Source of the DNA: Patescibacteria group bacterium
Lineage (GTDB): Bacteria; Patescibacteriota; Patescibacteriia; Buchananbacterales; UBA6539
Assembly (NCBI GenBank): GCA_028688055.1
Contig: JAQTYZ010000003.1
Coordinates: forward strand, 130,752 to 172,977
DNA length: 42,226 nt
Direction of reading: 5' to 3'
A model generated the notes under the pieces. That model was given only the letters and a program-made list of their open reading frames with translations, was not told the origin of the DNA and ran no database searches. The translations under genes were made by a program, and so were the position numbers. Shown in pieces: positions 12,067 through 21,382 of the stretch; within the stretch, counting starts at the first letter, position 1, and each line of letters begins with the position of its first letter.

Positions 12067-12450
12067 ATGGATAAAATTAACCCCAAAAAAATATTGCTTG
12101 TTGAGGATGATGATTTTTTAGCCAAAATGCTTTCAAAAAGTCTTGAATCTCACGGCTATCAGCCGATTTTAGCCGGCAGCGGGCGCGAAGGGATGGAAAA
12201 AATAAAAAGCTCTGGTGTTGATATGATCCTACTGGATATTATGTTACCTGATATGGATGGTTTTGATGTTTTAAAAAAAATTAATGCTGATGTAAGCGCG
12301 AGCAAATTGCCGGTGATTATTTTGTCTAACCTAGGACAGCCCGAAGATATTTATCAGGGCAAAAATTTAGGGGCCCGAGATTATTTGGTAAAAAGCGATT
12401 ACAGTTTGGATGAAATAGTTAAGCGAGTGAGCAAATATTTGCCCAATTAA
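12067..12450 (+). CDS. Single-domain response regulator (CheY-like receiver)
   Basis: Receiver domain without an output domain, 127 residues. The acidic pocket is VEDDDF (residues 12-17) and the phospho-acceptor is Asp57 in MILLDIMLPDMDGFDVL. The Ser/Thr switch position is in PVIILSNLG, and the conserved Lys in the GARDYLVKSDYS loop. It therefore has every residue needed for phosphorylation. No histidine kinase is adjacent. It is the first gene of the pilus locus and lies two bases before pilB, so it probably tunes pilus assembly or retraction in the way PilG/PilH do, although that role is inferred from position. Confidence 0.88.
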   Translation: MDKINPKKILLVEDDDFLAKMLSKSLESHGYQPILAGSGREGMEKIKSSGVDMILLDIMLPDMDGFDVLKKINADVSASKLPVIILSNLGQPEDIYQGKNLGARDYLVKSDYSLDEIVKRVSKYLPN

Positions 12451-12452
12451 TT

Positions 12453-14135
12453 ATGGTGATATCCAACGAGCGATTGAAAACAATTATTGAACAATTGGGG
12501 ATTATCGCGCCGGAGCGACTGGAAGGCGCTATGGTTTTTGCCCAAAAAAATAAAACTCCGCTGGCGGAGGTTTTAGTTGATAGTGATTTGATTTCTGACG
12601 ACCACTTGGGTGAAATTATCGCCGCTGAGCTGAAGTATGAATTTATTGATTTGGAAAAAATAGTCATTGATGAAGCGGTACTAAAAATTATCCCAAAAGT
12701 TATGGCCAAGGCCCAAAAGATTATTGCTTTTGGCCGCGCTGAAAATGTTCTTAAATTGGCGATGGTCAATCCTGGTAATTTAAGGTTGGTTAAGTTAATT
12801 GAAAAGAAGACGGGTGAACAGGCCAAGGTGTACTACACGACCGCGCAAAATATTGAAAGTGCTTTAACTAAATATCAGCAAAGCATTGTTAAAGAATTTG
12901 CCAAAATTATTCAGGAAAATATTAGTGAGGCCAAGAGTAGCAAAGATAAAAATGATTTGCCGATTATTAAAATTGTTGACACAGTTATTGAATATGCTTA
13001 TGACAATAAGGCGTCCGATATTCATATTGAGCCGCTGGAGGAAAAAACCTTGGTTAGGTTTCGCATTGATGGAATTTTGCACGATATTATTGATTTACCA
13101 AAAGCCGTTCACGAACTGATTGTTATGAGAATCAAGATTATGTCAAAGCTTAGAACTGATGAACATTTAAGTGCGCAAGACGGTAAAATAAGAAGCAAAA
13201 TTAATGAAAATAATTTAGATATTCGTGTGTCAATTATTCCCGTTGTTGATGGCGAAAAAATTGTGTTGCGATTATTATCGGAAAAAAACCGGCAATTTGG
13301 TCTCGAGGATTTGGGGATGTCGGCGGCTGATTTATTTAAAGTAAAAAAAGAATACTCGAAGCCGTACGGAATGGTTTTAGCAACCGGACCGACTGGTTCG
13401 GGCAAGACCACATCGCTTTATGCAATCTTAAAGATTTTAAATCGCCGGGAGGTTAATATTTCAACCATTGAAGATCCGGTTGAATACGATATTGAGGGCG
13501 TCAACCAAATTCAAGTTAATCCTAAAACTAACCTAACGTTTGCGGCCGGTTTGCGCTCAATTTTACGTCAGGATCCGGATATTATTATGGTTGGCGAAAT
13601 TCGCGATCAAGATACGGCCGAAATTGCTATTAATTCGGCGATGACTGGACATTTGGTTTTATCGACGCTTCATACTAATGATGCGGCGACCGCTTTGCCC
13701 CGATTTTTAGAAATGAATATTGAGCCTTTTTTAATCGCCTCAACGGTAAATATTATTGTCGCTCAGCGGTTAATTAGAAAAAATTGCACCGAGTGCATCG
13801 TTAGTGAAGAAAAAACGCTGGAAGAATTGAAGACAAAATTTTCCGCGACCTTAATTGAAAAACTTTTTGGTTTTGACAATAAGAGTATTCGATTATATCG
13901 GAGCAAGGGATGTCCAGTCTGCGGTAACACCGGCTACGCGGGGAGAATCGGAATCTATGAGGTTTTAGATGTGACTGAATCAATCCGCGATTTGATTATG
14001 AAAAGGGCGGATGCCGATCAAATAAAAAAAATGGCCGTGAGCGAGGGGATGACGACCATGATTGAGGATGGTGTTCGTAAAGCTTTAGCTGGAATTACTA
14101 CCATCGAAGAAGTTTTGCGCGCAACGCGCGAATAA
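12453..14135 (+). CDS. pilB: Type IV pilus assembly ATPase
   Basis: Hexameric cytoplasmic ATPase that powers pilin polymerisation. 560 residues, normal for PilB/GspE. The N-terminal part (about 1-150, GIIAPERLEGAMVFAQKNKT onward) corresponds to the MshEN-type regulatory domain. The ATPase core has Walker A ATGPTGSGKTTSLYAIL (about 311), the Asp box ISTIEDPVEYDIEGVNQIQV, Walker B DIIMVGEIRDQDTAEIA (about 374) and the His box LSTLHTNDAATALPRF. The zinc-binding cysteine set is complete: RKNCTECIV (about 445-448) and GCPVCGNTGYAGRIGIYEV (about 486-489). pilC follows after 11 bases. A retraction ATPase (PilT) is not in this window. Confidence 0.95.
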   Translation: MVISNERLKTIIEQLGIIAPERLEGAMVFAQKNKTPLAEVLVDSDLISDDHLGEIIAAELKYEFIDLEKIVIDEAVLKIIPKVMAKAQKIIAFGRAENVLKLAMVNPGNLRLVKLIEKKTGEQAKVYYTTAQNIESALTKYQQSIVKEFAKIIQENISEAKSSKDKNDLPIIKIVDTVIEYAYDNKASDIHIEPLEEKTLVRFRIDGILHDIIDLPKAVHELIVMRIKIMSKLRTDEHLSAQDGKIRSKINENNLDIRVSIIPVVDGEKIVLRLLSEKNRQFGLEDLGMSAADLFKVKKEYSKPYGMVLATGPTGSGKTTSLYAILKILNRREVNISTIEDPVEYDIEGVNQIQVNPKTNLTFAAGLRSILRQDPDIIMVGEIRDQDTAEIAINSAMTGHLVLSTLHTNDAATALPRFLEMNIEPFLIASTVNIIVAQRLIRKNCTECIVSEEKTLEELKTKFSATLIEKLFGFDNKSIRLYRSKGCPVCGNTGYAGRIGIYEVLDVTESIRDLIMKRADADQIKKMAVSEGMTTMIEDGVRKALAGITTIEEVLRATRE

Positions 14136-15376: not shown

Positions 15377-15814
15377 ATGAAAGGTTTTACCTTAGTTGAG
15401 ACAATTTTAGTTTTGGCCATGCTAGTTATTATTTCTGGCCTTAGTATTCCGTTTATTCAATCATTCAACGCTTCGTCGGATTTATATACTTATTCAGATC
15501 AAATCGAAAAATTTGTTCGGAAGGCTCACGACCAAGCCCGGAGTGGTTTAAACGGCTCAGCCTGGGGAGTTTATTTTAATTCGTCGGCCCATCAAATTAT
15601 TTTGTATCGAGGAGATCGTTACGTAACTCGGGACTCGGATTATGATTTGGCATTAAACTATCCGGCGCCTTATTCCGTCTCAACCGATTTTGGCACGGAC
15701 TTAAATTTTAAGGCGTATGCTGGAACGCCTGATAACGTCGGGATTATTACGGTTTTAGGTCCAACCGCTGCTGCGAAGAATTTTACGGTCGACGACCTTG
15801 GGCTAATAAAATAA
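15377..15814 (+). CDS. Minor pilin-like protein (FimT/GspH-like)
   Basis: 145 residues. The class III prepilin signal is minimal and clear: MKG followed by FTLVETILVLAMLVIISGLS, so the prepilin peptidase would cut after Gly3 and methylate Phe. Glu at +5 is present, as needed for assembly. The remainder resembles GspH/FimT pseudopilins (QIEKFVRKAHDQARSGLNGS, then WGVYFNSSAHQIILYRGDRY). These minor pilins prime fibre assembly at the tip. Start codons and spacing (three bases after pilC, three before the next gene) indicate tight co-translation. No prepilin peptidase gene is visible in the window. Confidence 0.85.
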   Translation: MKGFTLVETILVLAMLVIISGLSIPFIQSFNASSDLYTYSDQIEKFVRKAHDQARSGLNGSAWGVYFNSSAHQIILYRGDRYVTRDSDYDLALNYPAPYSVSTDFGTDLNFKAYAGTPDNVGIITVLGPTAAAKNFTVDDLGLIK

Positions 15815-15817
15815 TTA

Positions 15818-17758
15818 ATGACCGCTTTGAAAAAACAATCAGGCTTTTCATTAGTTGAGGTAATTTTAGCTGTTGCCTTGTTTGGACTATTTGCGACCGC
15901 TTTAATTGGCCTGCTGATGAATTCTTATGGTAGTGATATTCAAGCCAAAGAAAAAGATGCCGCTACTATTTATGCTCAGCAGGGAATTGATGCGGTTCGG
16001 TCCATCCGTCGTCAGGCTTGGAATTTTTTAGTTAATGGCAGCTATGGACTTGATCAGTCAATCGGACACTGGCAGTTTAGCGGTTCGTCTGATTTTTTGG
16101 CGGCGAAATTCACGTGCGTCACAACAATTGGCAATGCCTGTCGTGATGTCGGTAAAAATCTTGTTGATTGTGTAACCCCCGGATCACAAATTGATTTAGA
16201 AACCAAAAAAGTGACCGTAGTCGTTTCTTATACCGCGGTTAACGGTGTTTTAAATAAGGTGATTTTAAATTCTTATTTAACAAATTGGCAGTCTAGCGAT
16301 TGGCGGCAGACTGATTGGGTCGGCGGATCAGGACAGACGGTTTGGGCCGACCCGACAAAATATAATGCCGATGATAGTAATATCAATATTGATACTGGTG
16401 GGCAGCTTAGTTTAGCCTCGGTTTCCGCTGACGGGTGTGGTATAAAAGTTTGGCCGTTTACCATGGCGGCAGATTATAATTACGACCCTAATAAAATCGA
16501 AGTTGTGGACGGTTTAGCGCAACTTAAAAATCAGGGTACGGTTCAAACCGGATCTTTAATAAATACCAATTTTAATGCTGATGCCAGCAACTGGACTTAT
16601 AGCGATTGGGACCAGGGCGGTGGTGAAGTAAACGTTGCTGGTTCATACGCTGCTAGTGGCGGTAATCCGGGCGGGATCGTAAATGTCAGTTTTCCGAGCG
16701 GCAAAAATGATGAACTGGGTGGCTATTGGTATCAGGCCTTTGAAACGACGGTCAGTAATCCGACGGTTACGGTTAATTTTGATTACAATGTTACTGATTA
16801 CAATTCCGCGCCGTTAACTTTTAAAGTTTATGTTTTTGTCGATTCATCACCAGGGACGCCAGTCATTGGTCAAGAGGTATGGTCATCGGGAGAAATTAAT
16901 TCGACGCAGAGTTGGACCAATCAGGCCAACATTGACGTCGCTTCTAGGGTTACTAATGTCGGTACCTATTATGTTAAATTTGCCGTTTGGGTGGAGACGC
17001 CTAATAGTAATACCGGGCCACTGACGGTAAATTTTGATAATTTAAATTTGTCTTGGTCGGGGTCGACCTTTGGTTATCCGACCAATCAGCCAACGATCAA
17101 TCCGGTCTCATCAGATACGGTCAATAACCTCGACACTTGGTCGTCATTTACCGAAGTTGCCACTAAAAATGGTGGGGAAATTTATTATCAGTTGTCTGAT
17201 AATAACGGCAGTACTTGGCAGTATTGGAATGGTAGTACTTGGACCACGGCTACGGCCGCCAATACCAATACCGCCGCGGTCATTAATTCAAATATTTCAT
17301 CATTTTCAACCTCCACGGGGCAACTGATGTTCAAAGCATTTTTAGCCAGTGATGGTTCACAGGCGGTTAGTTTGGATTCAGTGACTATTGGCTGGGGACC
17401 GGCCATGGCTGGCGGTAGTGGTTATCAGACGAGTGGTTATTTGATTTCATCAGCTTTTGATATGGGCGCGGCCGCCGCGGTGAATCTTATTAAATGGAGT
17501 CAGATTATTCCAGTTTGTTCGCCGTCGTGTTCAATTAAATTTCAGGTCAGGACCGCACCGGATAACGGCGGGAGTCCAGGCACTTGGTCTAATTGGTATG
17601 GGGCTGATGGCAGCGGTTTTTATTTTACGGATTCAAGTGGATCAATCATAAGCCCGGACTTAAATTTTAAGCAGTGGGTTCAATATCGGGCTGAGTTGTC
17701 AGGTGACGGTACGAAAACGCCGATTTTGAATGAGGTGATAATTAATTACACGCCATAA
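15818..17758 (+). CDS. Very large minor pilin with extracellular C-terminal domains, putative pilus-tip adhesin
   Basis: 646 residues, several times the usual minor-pilin size. The N-terminus is a prepilin signal: KKQSG, then FSLVEVILAVALFGLFATAL, with Glu+5 present. A PilV-like helix follows (GIDAVRSIRRQAWNFLVNGS). The rest is Ser/Thr/Asn/Gly/aromatic-rich and beta-like. It holds a jelly-roll-like region at about residues 245-410 (NFNADASNWTYSDWDQGGGE; GTYYVKFAVWVETPNSNTGP) and a second beta region to the end (NGGEIYYQLSDNNGSTWQYW; SCSIKFQVRTAPDNGGSPGT). Such folds often bind carbohydrate or other surfaces. Placement among the minor pilins suggests it caps the fibre as an adhesin. The next gene starts in an overlap (TAATG). 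Confidence 0.8.
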   Translation: MTALKKQSGFSLVEVILAVALFGLFATALIGLLMNSYGSDIQAKEKDAATIYAQQGIDAVRSIRRQAWNFLVNGSYGLDQSIGHWQFSGSSDFLAAKFTCVTTIGNACRDVGKNLVDCVTPGSQIDLETKKVTVVVSYTAVNGVLNKVILNSYLTNWQSSDWRQTDWVGGSGQTVWADPTKYNADDSNINIDTGGQLSLASVSADGCGIKVWPFTMAADYNYDPNKIEVVDGLAQLKNQGTVQTGSLINTNFNADASNWTYSDWDQGGGEVNVAGSYAASGGNPGGIVNVSFPSGKNDELGGYWYQAFETTVSNPTVTVNFDYNVTDYNSAPLTFKVYVFVDSSPGTPVIGQEVWSSGEINSTQSWTNQANIDVASRVTNVGTYYVKFAVWVETPNSNTGPLTVNFDNLNLSWSGSTFGYPTNQPTINPVSSDTVNNLDTWSSFTEVATKNGGEIYYQLSDNNGSTWQYWNGSTWTTATAANTNTAAVINSNISSFSTSTGQLMFKAFLASDGSQAVSLDSVTIGWGPAMAGGSGYQTSGYLISSAFDMGAAAAVNLIKWSQIIPVCSPSCSIKFQVRTAPDNGGSPGTWSNWYGADGSGFYFTDSSGSIISPDLNFKQWVQYRAELSGDGTKTPILNEVIINYTP

Positions 17759-18261
17759 TGTATCCCCAACTTAAAAAATCAGGTTTTACTTTAATTGAGA
17801 CGATAATATATATTGCTATCGTCGCTTCAATCCTGTTATCAATGTCTTATTTGATTATTAATATTGTTGGTGGGCAGTCGTCAAATAATTCTAAGAGTGA
17901 AGTTAATTATAATGTTGAATCAATTAGTAGTTTGATGAGGCGGGATTTTCGGTCGGCCAAAAAAATAAATTCACTAACCAGCGACCGTATTACCGTCGAA
18001 GAATCAAGTGGACAGCAGATTACCTATACGTTTGACAATCTTACTAAATCAATTTCTCGGGCCGTTGAATCATTACCGGCACAGGATCTAAATACATCGT
18101 TAGTTGCGGTGAGTGGTCAATTTTCAGACTTGTCATATCTGACACGTTCAAAAAATATCGGGGTTGCCTTGACGATTGAGTATAAGAATCCTGATAACTT
18201 AGCTGAATATCAAACGAGCAGTTCAATTGAGTTTGCTGTTGAATTAAGGGGAGTTAAATAA
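17758..18261 (+). CDS. Minor pilin-like protein (PilW/GspJ-like)
   Basis: 167 residues. The prepilin signal YPQLKKSG is followed by FTLIETIIYIAIVASILLSM with Glu+5. The extracytoplasmic part begins with a Ser/Asn-rich helix (SKSEVNYNVESISSLMRRDF) typical of PilW/GspJ proteins, then strands (ITYTFDNLTKSISRAVESL, GVALTIEYKNPD). It is the third minor-pilin-type protein in the locus and probably part of the tip complex with its neighbours. Its ATG overlaps the stop codon of the large pilin. Naming as PilW is by position and general resemblance only. Confidence 0.8.
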   Translation: MYPQLKKSGFTLIETIIYIAIVASILLSMSYLIINIVGGQSSNNSKSEVNYNVESISSLMRRDFRSAKKINSLTSDRITVEESSGQQITYTFDNLTKSISRAVESLPAQDLNTSLVAVSGQFSDLSYLTRSKNIGVALTIEYKNPDNLAEYQTSSSIEFAVELRGVK

Positions 18262-18262
18262 A

Positions 18263-18643
18263 ATGATTAATTATCAGAAAAAACCAAACGGTTATATTGC
18301 GTTGACATCGCTTTTGATTATCGCGACGGCGGCTTTAACGATTGGGCTGGCGGTAAGTCTGAATAGTATTGATAGTATCCAGTCGAGCTATGGTCATTCC
18401 CAGTCGGCTCGGGCCGAGGCTGCAGCCAACGCCGGTATTGAGGAAGGCTTACAAAAATTAAGAAAAAATTGGAGCAGTTATTCTGGCAGTTTGTCAATCA
18501 ATGATGATTCGTGTACAATAAATATTGTTACCAGCGGTTCGACTGCTTCCATTGAAGCCGTCGGTAAGGCCGATGAATATTTCCAAAAAATTTTAATCCA
18601 CGTCGACAGTCAGCTGTCGATTTTGAACTGGCAGGAGGAATAA
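18263..18643 (+). CDS. PilX/GspK-like minor pilin
   Basis: 126 residues. The N-terminus INYQKKPNGYIALTSLLIIA has basic residues, Gly9 and then a hydrophobic segment, but it lacks Glu at +5. This is characteristic of GspK/PilX-type tip pilins that do not need to neutralise a preceding subunit. The conserved SARAEAAANAGIEEGLQKL stretch is a hallmark of PilX N-terminal helices. A short beta part follows (CTINIVTSGSTASIEAV). GGGGAG upstream of the ATG is a plausible SD. The combination of FimT-, PilV-, PilW- and PilX-like genes in a row mirrors the minor pilin operons of other bacteria. Confidence 0.8.
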   Translation: MINYQKKPNGYIALTSLLIIATAALTIGLAVSLNSIDSIQSSYGHSQSARAEAAANAGIEEGLQKLRKNWSSYSGSLSINDDSCTINIVTSGSTASIEAVGKADEYFQKILIHVDSQLSILNWQEE

Positions 18644-18649
18644 AACAAA

Positions 18650-20218
18650 ATGATCATCAAACAAATTTTTGGCCTTGATATCTCAGATCATTCAATTGAG
18701 GCTTTGATAATTTCCAAAAAAATTTTTAGCAAGCCGAGGATTTCGACTTATGCTCGCGTGGTGTTGCCATCAGGCATCATCATTAATGGTCTTATCAAAA
18801 AACCAAATAAGTTGGCGGAGTATTTGCAGAAATTATTGATTAGCGCTCAGCCTAAGCCTATCAAGAGTCCGTACTGTATCTTGTCGATTCCTGAATCACA
18901 AGTTTTCAGTGCGGTTTTTAAGTTTCCGGCCGGCTTAAAACATCGTGAAATTCAAAAAACTATTCCGTTCAAGGCCGAAGAGGTCATTCCGTTTAAAACT
19001 TCAGAAATTTATTTTGATTTTAAGACCATATCAGTTCAGGGCGGAACCCAGGAAATATTTTATGTCGCCGTTCCGTCCCAGGTCGTCGATAGCTATATTG
19101 AGGTTTTAAGTATGGTAAATTTGAAACCGGTGGCTTTTGATTTAGAATCGGTTAGCTTGTCCCGAGGAGTTGTTAATCAGATCGCTAAGGGCCAGGCTAA
19201 ATTGATTGCTGATATTGGCTCGCGAACGACTAATTTTAATATCTTTGATCAAAACGGTATTCGAGCCAGCAGCCAGTCAAAAATTGCTGGTAGCAGAATT
19301 ACTAAAGCCTTAATGAGCGGTTTAAAAGTCACTGCCCAGCGCGCTGATGAAATAAAATCCAAGTACGGATTAAACCAAAAAAAACAACAGCCGCGAGCCT
19401 GGCAGATTTTAAAAAAAGAATATGCTAATTTAGTTGCGGAAGCTAAATCGCAAATTGATTTTTATCAAAAAGAGAGTGGTCGAATGGTAACGGAGGTAAT
19501 TTTGGCCGGCGGTTCGGCACTGACGCCTGGGGTTGATCAATTTTTTGCTGATGCGCTGGGATTGGAAGTTAATATTGGGGACGCTTTAGCTAAAGTTTCT
19601 GATCCAAAAAATGTTTTAAAAACGCAGCATAAAAATATTATTTTTGACAACGTTGCTGGCTTGGCTTGGCGAGGGCTGCGCCATAATCCCGCAACCGGCG
19701 ACATTAATTTACTACCGTTAGAAAGAAGATTATTTAGAGTCATGCCGTCAACTTATGAGCGCCGGCGCTGGAAAATGATTTATTTTAGGTTGTCGGTGTT
19801 AGTAGCTTTACTCTTGGCTTTGGTCGGATTATTTGTTTGGCGCCAACGCGGTAATGATTTATACCAAAACGTTTATCCATCCAATTCATATGATTCAAAC
19901 ATTGAGGCTGATATCGATTTGGAATTATTGGATGCGCTGCGCAATAATATTTTAAATCCGGCGACAACTACTGCTACGACGACGGCGACAACTACACCAG
20001 CAGCAGTTGAGACTTTGCCAAGGTTAGTTAAGATCAGACCAACGAGCGTCGGCTTTTTAAATGTTAGGGCCGATGCTGGTGCCAATTTTTCAGTTATCGG
20101 TCAGGCCCAATCAGGCCAAGAATACAATATGATTGATGAAAAAAACGGCTGGCTTAAAATTGACCTTGGCGGTGGGAAAATTGGTTGGGTTGATGGGTCT
20201 TATGTTGATAACTTATAG
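18650..20218 (+). CDS. pilM: PilM-PilN fusion with C-terminal SH3b domain
   Basis: 522 residues. Residues 1-345 are the actin-like ATPase PilM (IFGLDISDHSIEALIISKK; LIADIGSRTTNFNIFD; ILAGGSALTPGVDQFFADAL). Directly after, at about 350-356, comes DINLLPLERR. This is the INLLP motif with which PilN tails normally bind PilM in trans. A single membrane span follows (about 378-398, LSVLVALLLALVGLFVW), then a Thr/Ala/Pro-rich linker (NPATTTATTTATTTPAAVE). The SH3b domain occupies about 462-522 (FLNVRADAGANFSVIGQAQ; GKIGWVDGSYVDNL). PilN's usual extracytoplasmic domain is absent. SH3b domains commonly bind peptidoglycan, so this one protein could link the cytoplasmic ring to the wall. pilO and pilP are not visible. 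Confidence 0.85.
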   Translation: MIIKQIFGLDISDHSIEALIISKKIFSKPRISTYARVVLPSGIIINGLIKKPNKLAEYLQKLLISAQPKPIKSPYCILSIPESQVFSAVFKFPAGLKHREIQKTIPFKAEEVIPFKTSEIYFDFKTISVQGGTQEIFYVAVPSQVVDSYIEVLSMVNLKPVAFDLESVSLSRGVVNQIAKGQAKLIADIGSRTTNFNIFDQNGIRASSQSKIAGSRITKALMSGLKVTAQRADEIKSKYGLNQKKQQPRAWQILKKEYANLVAEAKSQIDFYQKESGRMVTEVILAGGSALTPGVDQFFADALGLEVNIGDALAKVSDPKNVLKTQHKNIIFDNVAGLAWRGLRHNPATGDINLLPLERRLFRVMPSTYERRRWKMIYFRLSVLVALLLALVGLFVWRQRGNDLYQNVYPSNSYDSNIEADIDLELLDALRNNILNPATTTATTTATTTPAAVETLPRLVKIRPTSVGFLNVRADAGANFSVIGQAQSGQEYNMIDEKNGWLKIDLGGGKIGWVDGSYVDNL

Positions 20219-20306: not shown

Positions 20307-20789
20307 ATGAAGAAAAAAGGTTTTACTTTAATTGAGCTATTAATTGTTATCGCCATCATTGCGATATTGGCCGCCATTATTTATGTTGCCGTTGATCCGG
20401 TTCGTCGTTTGTCCGAGGCCAGAAATGCCGAGCGATGGAGTTCAGTTAATTCGATTTTGAATGCTGTGTTAAAGTATACGGTTGATAATCAAGGTGTGTT
20501 ACCGAGCAATTTGTCCGCCGCAACCGCTGGCAATTATTATGTGCTAGGCACAGCTGGTTCTGGTTGCAACACAACCTGCACGGCTCAGGCCACCCAAGCG
20601 GCTTGTTTGGATCTAAGTAATAATTTGGTGAGTACGTATTTAGCCTCGATGCCCATTGACTCAAAAACCGGTAGCGCCGCGAATACTGATTATTACATTA
20701 TGAAATCATCCACCGGAAGAATTATGGTTGGCGCATGTGATGCCGAATCAGTTGGCGGAACAACACCGACGATTAGTGTTAGCCGTTAG
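20307..20789 (+). CDS. pilA: Major type IV pilin
   Basis: 160 residues. Canonical prepilin: MKKKG followed by FTLIELLIVIAIIAILAAII, cleavage after Gly5, Glu+5 present. The helical spine continues (RRLSEARNAERWSSVNSILN), followed by a globular head with four cysteines (GCNTTCTAQATQAACLDL and VGACDAESV). It is the best candidate for the main fibre subunit because it has its own strong promoter, SD and terminator and sits at the end of the locus. The C-terminus is Thr/Ser-rich (GGTTPTISVSR). The Cys-rich head fits with extracytoplasmic disulfide handling by the CcdA/thioredoxin proteins elsewhere in the window. Confidence 0.92.
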   Translation: MKKKGFTLIELLIVIAIIAILAAIIYVAVDPVRRLSEARNAERWSSVNSILNAVLKYTVDNQGVLPSNLSAATAGNYYVLGTAGSGCNTTCTAQATQAACLDLSNNLVSTYLASMPIDSKTGSAANTDYYIMKSSTGRIMVGACDAESVGGTTPTISVSR

Positions 20790-20869: not shown

Positions 20870-21382
20870 ATGTCAAAACAAGCGATATTTATTGTTGCCC
20901 AACAAACCTTTCGCGATGAAGAGTTGCTTGAGCCAAAAGCGATTCTAGAGCAGCGTGGTATTAGGGTTAAGATTGCATCAAAAACTAGGCATAAAGCCAG
21001 TGGTAAACTGGGGACCGAGATTGAACCAGATTTGGCCCTCGCGGAAATTAACCCAACCGAAAGTGATGCGCTAATTTTTGTGGGCGGATCGGGATCGCGT
21101 CAGTATTTTGATGATCCTGAGGCTTTGAGGTTAGCCTCATCTTTTAAGGTTGCCGGTAAGCTGGTCGCTTCGATTTGTATCGCTTCATCAATTTTAGCAA
21201 ACGCTGGAATTTTAATGGGGAAAAGAGTAACTGGATTTCCCACTGAAGAAGAAAATATTATTAATCACGGCGGCGAATATACTGGGATGCAAGTTGAAGT
21301 TGATGGTAGTGTCGTGACGGCAAAGGACCCTAGCGCCGCCAAGGAATTTGGTGAAGCATTAGCCTATTTGTTAGAAGGTTAA
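20870..21382 (+). CDS. DJ-1/PfpI-family protein
   Basis: 170 residues, the usual size for bacterial DJ-1/PfpI proteins, which include deglycases, chaperones and proteases. The family glutamate lies in the FRDEELLEPKAILEQRGI segment. The nucleophilic elbow Cys sits in KLVASICIASSILANAGILM, and FVGGSGSRQYFDD precedes it. The residue after the Cys is Ile where most relatives have His or Gly, so the catalytic neighbourhood is altered. Hydrolytic activity should not be assumed. It heads a three-gene redox/stress unit with a glutaredoxin (three-base gap) and a thioredoxin-like protein, which fits a role in oxidative or carbonyl stress. Confidence 0.85.
   Translation: MSKQAIFIVAQQTFRDEELLEPKAILEQRGIRVKIASKTRHKASGKLGTEIEPDLALAEINPTESDALIFVGGSGSRQYFDDPEALRLASSFKVAGKLVASICIASSILANAGILMGKRVTGFPTEEENIINHGGEYTGMQVEVDGSVVTAKDPSAAKEFGEALAYLLEG

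Follow-up and report, generated by a model that had tools for sequence, protein, structure and literature searches.

Patescibacteria are tiny, uncultured bacteria that are thought to use pili for living on other microbes. In the 42,226-nucleotide stretch of patescibacterial DNA analysed here, referred to in full as the window, a type IV pilus operon carries a single gene in which a PilM domain is followed by a PilN-type docking motif, a membrane span, a linker and an SH3b domain. How could a PilM of this kind serve a pilus operon that has neither pilN nor pilO? PilM, PilN and PilO are deemed essential for type IVa pili, their individual roles being an open question (PMC6916266). In T. thermophilus a narrow channel of PilM receives the first eight residues of PilN; PilM also binds the PilF motor, and it connects this ATPase with the platform in the membrane (PMC6325625). 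We consider it fairly likely that the gene described below encodes a self-anchored PilM for an operon without PilN or PilO, its tail docking in PilN's stead and its SH3b domain lying outside the membrane.

The fusion gene and its operon

The fusion is the eighth gene of a tight block, with intergenic gaps of -1 to 11 bp as far as the fusion itself. The features of the operon (operon 3 of its genome) and of the chain are:

12067..12450, + strand: response-regulator receiver protein at the head of the conserved block, its place kept in most relatives
12453..14135, + strand: PilB extension ATPase, 47% identical to the operon 1 PilB of the same genome
14147..15373, + strand: PilC platform protein, 30% identical to the operon 1 PilC
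15377..18261, + strand: three pilin-like genes (15377-15814, 15818-17758, 17758-18261) with GFTLVE, GFSLVE and GFTLIE prepilin motifs and an N-terminal span
18263..18643, + strand: PilX-like protein, 6 bp upstream of the fusion, its position conserved in relatives
18650..20218, + strand: fusion gene (PilM, PilN-type docking motif, membrane span, linker, SH3b), a single ORF of 522 aa
18671..19627, + strand: PilM domain (actin/FtsA-like), residues 8-326, Pfam PilM_2 E 9e-35
19700..19729, + strand: PilN-type PilM-docking motif DINLLPLERR, residues 351-360, Asn353 being invariant in 15 relatives
19778..19843, + strand: predicted membrane span, residues about 377-398, N-terminus in, from hydropathy and charge flanks
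19958..20005, + strand: Thr/Ala/Pro-rich linker, from the acidic post-span segment to SH3b, read from the translation, limits approximate
20054..20209, + strand: SH3b domain, residues 469-520, predicted outside the membrane, Pfam SH3_3 E 8.3e-13
20307..20789, + strand: probable major pilin, 88 bp downstream of the fusion, N-terminus GFTLIELLIVIAIIAILAAI

Pfam and phmmer searches found the PilM_2/FtsA-like fold over the full length of the PilM body, which ends near residue 343 (phmmer E 1e-14 against 2ych_A and 2e-12 against 5eou_A). A first, sequence-only reading of this DNA had called the domain a PilM ATPase; its being a PilM is upheld by the Pfam match, and the word ATPase would be a label borrowed from the fold. 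Binding of ATP, and of PilB and PilC, is a further property of type IVa PilM that the fusion may share. A basic segment separates DINLLPLERR from the span and an acidic stretch follows it; because the flank on the PilM side has a net charge of +5 and the one beyond the span is about neutral (-1), PilM is predicted to lie inside and SH3b outside. The linker reads ATTTATTTATTTPAA, and the SH3_3 match covers positions 2-54 of the 54 in the profile.

Two features of PilN are present in the chain, an [ILV]NLL docking motif (DINLLP) and a span within 17-28 residues after it. The chain has no Pfam match to the PilN family, no credible PilN profile match and no ferredoxin-like extracytoplasmic domain, the place of which is occupied by SH3b. 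The layout originally proposed, in which one chain runs from PilM through DINLLPLERR, the span and the Thr/Ala/Pro linker to SH3b, is one on which ORF, Pfam and hydropathy agree, and the SH3_3 match together with the lack of any PilN-family match supports the claim that SH3b stands instead of PilN's extracytoplasmic domain. Two AlphaFold2 models, one for the whole chain and one for residues 1-376, were built from two-sequence alignments and came out poor, with mean pLDDT values of 46.7 and 46.6.

The fusion is encoded with pilB, pilC and pilins, as expected of a PilM, in a conserved block of response regulator, pilB, pilC, pilins, pilX, pilM and pilin. The pilN and pilO genes of a PilMNO(P) alignment complex are absent from this operon, and the probable major pilin sits where canonical operons have pilN. 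Profiles built from relatives' PilN and PilO gave no credible match within the window (best E 0.006), and the same profiles recover control operons at E 1e-33 to 1e-68. A pilN or pilO hidden inside neighbouring genes was ruled out by this profile search and by the narrow gaps of the block. The block recurs throughout the order and much of the class, and in close relatives a DJ-1-like gene and uvrB/uvrA often come after it.

Here the gene directly downstream of the major pilin (window positions 20870-21382) is DJ-1/PfpI-like; most relatives within the order retain it at this position, a conservation that points to a link with the pilus operon. A second SH3b protein, of 349 aa and with an N-terminal signal-like segment, is encoded on the other strand shortly before the window begins (L011:6904-7953; contig 6, 126.9-128.0 kb).

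The source genome (G000; 1.10 Mb, 22 contigs) contains two pilus operons besides that of the fusion. One, on contig 13, comprises pilB, pilC, pilins, pilX, pilM, pilN, pilO and a small membrane protein; the other, on contig 6 near 66 kb, comprises pilM, a longer pilN, pilO, pilB, a response regulator, pilT, pilC and pilins. Both therefore carry their own pilM, pilB and pilC. PilN and PilO have Pfam support on contig 13 and profile support on contigs 13 and 6. The sequence-only reading had named separate pilN and pilO genes in the genome as an observation that would tell against it. Such genes are there, in these two complete operons, and are absent from the fusion operon. That the fusion also replaces PilO/P is a suggestion drawn from gene absence only. 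The PilN of operon 2 (L010:11204-12352) has a long N-terminal extension with two PilN-type motifs, EINLLPNELREK at the start and DVNLIPADL just before the span; it may have an extra PilM-binding site.

Distribution of the fusion and of PilM tails

When other Patescibacteria were searched for the same architecture, the full chain with SH3b was found in 9 of the 12 genomes searched in the order, in three families, with identities of 48-53% within the family and 35-40% within the order. An assembly or frameshift artefact was ruled out by the presence of the same full-length chain in nine genomes. The closest relative that has a name is a Ca. Buchananbacteria MAG (JAFGGX010000033.1, locus L013). 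Within the order, G011 has a different ectodomain on PilM instead of SH3b, the PilM of G010 lacks a span, its last residues being RGVNLLQKARSHS, and in G004 only a canonical PilM was detected. A search of viral contigs added no usable relatives.

The survey was then widened to the class (286 genomes) and the phylum (380 genomes), and 105 distinct PilM genes were read in context. Forty of them were classed as PilN-dependent (group a), the downstream PilN having been read for nearly all; L073, which ends at a contig edge, was placed in this group by sequence, leaving 39 in the tests. Seventeen have neither a span nor a pilN (group b) and are mostly followed directly by a pilin gene; the span-free homologue of G039, for example, ends AGINLLPVGGGK. 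Group c consists of 45 PilMs with a span, mostly with an ectodomain, for which no pilN was found, and group d of three complete PilM-PilN fusions with a PilO-like gene downstream. SH3b occurs in 17 of the 105 proteins; in sister lineages the ectodomain is a different one or is missing, or the span itself is absent, the motif usually being kept. The SH3b module of the original reading is thus present in the window chain and is one of several endings across sister lineages. Because span-free relatives keep the tail, it is the tail rather than SH3b that is the more constant part.

Two further observations concern unusual architectures in this set. The PilM ectodomains of L128, L137 and L144 have weak Baseplate_J matches (E 5e-4 to 7e-3, under the Pfam cut-offs), and the PilM of L147 (G477) is preceded by about 500 highly charged residues, probably a coiled coil, with an FNFLP motif and span at the end.

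We scored the motif as [ILVMFYP]N[LFI] lying no more than 30 residues from the point where the PilM body ends, an expression picked after the tails had been seen. It occurs in 17/17 members of group b, 30/45 of group c, 3/3 of group d and 1/39 of group a, among matches to a search profile that included tails and may favour tail-bearing PilMs. Shuffling of the tails gave expectations of 2.6 for group b (maximum 8 in 2000 shuffles) and 5.4 for group c, so the motif in span-free tails is beyond chance. Group b against group a gave a Fisher p of 2e-13; none of these figures is corrected for relatedness. Of the 15 group c members without a clear motif, some have Asp or Ser in place of Asn, and several seem degenerate rather than unrelated (GLDLLPRERR, EIDFY).

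The likeness of these tails to PilN was assessed on PilN genes from the same survey. Each of the 37 fully read PilNs opens with M, then a few residues and an INLL/LNLI-type ([ILV]-[NST]-L-type) motif, with PilO following in nearly every case. In the 33 that were aligned, Asn and Leu at the matching place in the motif are the sole invariant residues. The span follows the motif by 17-28 aa in PilNs (about 24 residues) and by 19-29 in 18 of the 30 group c proteins that have the motif, longer inserts being present in the rest. Comparison of the PilN profile with that of tails and spans aligned exactly the motif (11 columns, probability 70%), a short match that is no more than suggestive of homology. 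The three group d fusions, from another class of the phylum (L150:1381-3135, L152:1399-3117, L153:955-2673), matched the PilN profile over 173 columns at E 9e-18 and are likely intermediates.

In a quick maximum-likelihood tree of PilM bodies, from which the tail columns had been removed and whose root is not known, all 39 PilN-dependent PilMs fall on one side of a branch with an SH-aLRT of 99, and the complete fusions of group d cluster at 97. The association between tail and pilN amounts to nearly one event, since it is confined to one main split. About nine interchanges between span-bearing and span-free forms, and six gains or losses of SH3b, are needed on this tree, in which one long-branch join was flagged. 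As the root is not known, the direction of change, with full fusion preceding loss, is inferred.

A proposed self-anchored PilM and the competing explanations

The preferred reading of a self-anchored PilM is built on the chain, the operon content, the distribution, the tail/pilN pattern and the tree. The C-terminal INLLP tail would fill the PilM groove otherwise held by the first residues of PilN, docking either in its own chain or in a neighbouring PilM. The chain would then cross the membrane about 25 residues past the motif, as PilN does, leaving PilM permanently tethered under the membrane, where it could couple PilB to PilC and allow a working pilus to be assembled. The outer SH3b, in place of the ferredoxin-like PilN domain that partners PilO, would probably fix the pilus base to peptidoglycan. 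Such a system may have begun with a complete PilM-PilN fusion, from which the outer domain of PilN and PilO would have been lost together, the outer part later being repeatedly replaced or lost while the docking tail was mostly kept. A wider proposal, to which we give an even chance, is that Patescibacteria possess a widespread type IV pilus without PilN or PilO in which a built-in PilN peptide fills the groove as the sole indispensable piece of PilN, anchoring or wall contact being optional and freely evolving (SH3b, other ectodomains or nothing).

That PilN and PilO from the two other operons of G000 serve the fusion operon in trans, with the tail competing with or supplementing PilN, appears unlikely. 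Both proteins are encoded in that genome (contig 13; contig 6 near 66 kb), and at least one PilN match was found in 56 of the 60 genomes with a fusion-type operon; against this, each of the other operons has its own PilM, PilB and PilC, and the tail would already fill the groove. Moreover, four genomes with the operon type (G005, G139, G208 and G147) yielded no credible PilN or PilO with two PilN profiles and a PilO profile. The strongest matches were marginal: one to the PilN profile in G147 (E 6e-4, inside a 538-aa frame) and those to PilO in G208 (E 1e-3) and G005 (E 9e-3). G005 carries the fusion type of the window and is about 98% complete. The absence of PilN and PilO from the four is moderate evidence, since all are drafts (4 to 100 contigs, estimated 95-100% complete). 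The operon-2-type PilMs of these genomes (L185 in G005, L176 in G139, L182 in G208, L183 in G147) have no tail and no adjoining pilN or pilO. The simple rule that every PilM lacking a PilN carries a tail was accordingly rejected, and the groove need not strictly be occupied.

The tail might instead be an autoinhibitory or regulatory latch, holding PilM in its PilN-bound shape or blocking a partner rather than anchoring it, with the span and SH3b as lineage-specific additions. We regard this as possible though doubtful. The 17 PilMs that retain the motif with nothing after it, and hence have no membrane link, fit a latch, as does the response-regulator gene at the head of the operon; yet 45 of the 62 PilMs of the lineage have a span, and a latch is compatible with the self-anchored PilM rather than exclusive of it. 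Least probable of all, in our judgement, is that SH3b is a sensor or substrate-binding module of an episymbiont, which would recognise a host cell wall or extracellular ligand and signal to PilM and PilB with no structural anchoring. Ectodomains that vary across lineages, and an SH3b gained or lost six times on the tree, would suit a sensor, but the single-pass chain and short, low-complexity linker would keep SH3b near the cell's own wall, and PilM is the only candidate signalling domain in the chain.

The natural series from separate genes through full fusion and swapped outer domain to bare tail tells which part of PilN persists when the remainder is lost, and it offers a compact system for testing the docking role of PilM without PilN or PilO. 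It is also relevant to the way in which pili are attached to the wall of cells that lack an outer membrane.

Comparison with known systems

As in the type IVa PilM-PilN pairs (T. thermophilus 2ych, P. aeruginosa PilM), the window chain combines a PilM fold, an INLLP-type peptide and a span. Those systems use two chains and a ferredoxin-like PilN domain that pairs with PilO, whereas the window has one chain and neither of the latter. The P. aeruginosa PilM/PilN chain in PDB entry 5eou appears from the molecule name of the entry to be engineered, and the 17 natural PilMs that end at the motif are comparable to that construct. In GspL of type II secretion the equivalents of PilM and PilN form one chain (PMC3815138), which resembles ours in having an actin-like cytoplasmic domain, one span and an outer domain. 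The outer domain of GspL is ferredoxin-like, however, and its partner is GspM, neither of which was found in the window. Membership of the fusion in the GspL family was rejected, there being no T2SSL match in Pfam and no GspM-type partner gene in the operon.

PilM and PilN are naturally fused in the monoderm C. difficile, according to a review that cites Melville and Craig 2013 (PMC6916266). The single chain of PilM and PilN first proposed for this locus is borne out by its domain content without being the first of its kind. As far as the review's statement of the fusion goes, the two chains share PilM plus PilN in one polypeptide and a monoderm host; the window chain has SH3b for the PilN outer domain and an operon without PilO. 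The phylum's own complete fusions (L150, L152, L153) share with it PilM, a VNLLP/LNLLP motif and a span in one chain, and differ in retaining the PilN outer domain and a PilO-like gene after it. According to a suggestion by Pelicic (PMC6916266), monoderms might use their enlarged PilO as the wall anchor of the machine; in the fusion operon, such anchoring could be provided by SH3b.

Surveys of Patescibacteria list separate PilM, PilN and PilO (PMC6744442, PMC12206443). The saccharibacterium TM7x has two type IV pilus loci, 1 and 2, both with pilM, pilN and pilO (PMC12206443), and is like G000 in housing several pilus machineries in one patescibacterial genome. Our literature search found no description of the fusion architecture, which does not by itself prove that none exists. 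Set beside these systems, what seems new is an operon type free of PilN and PilO, an SH3b domain in place of the PilN outer domain, and PilMs whose sequence stops at the docking motif.
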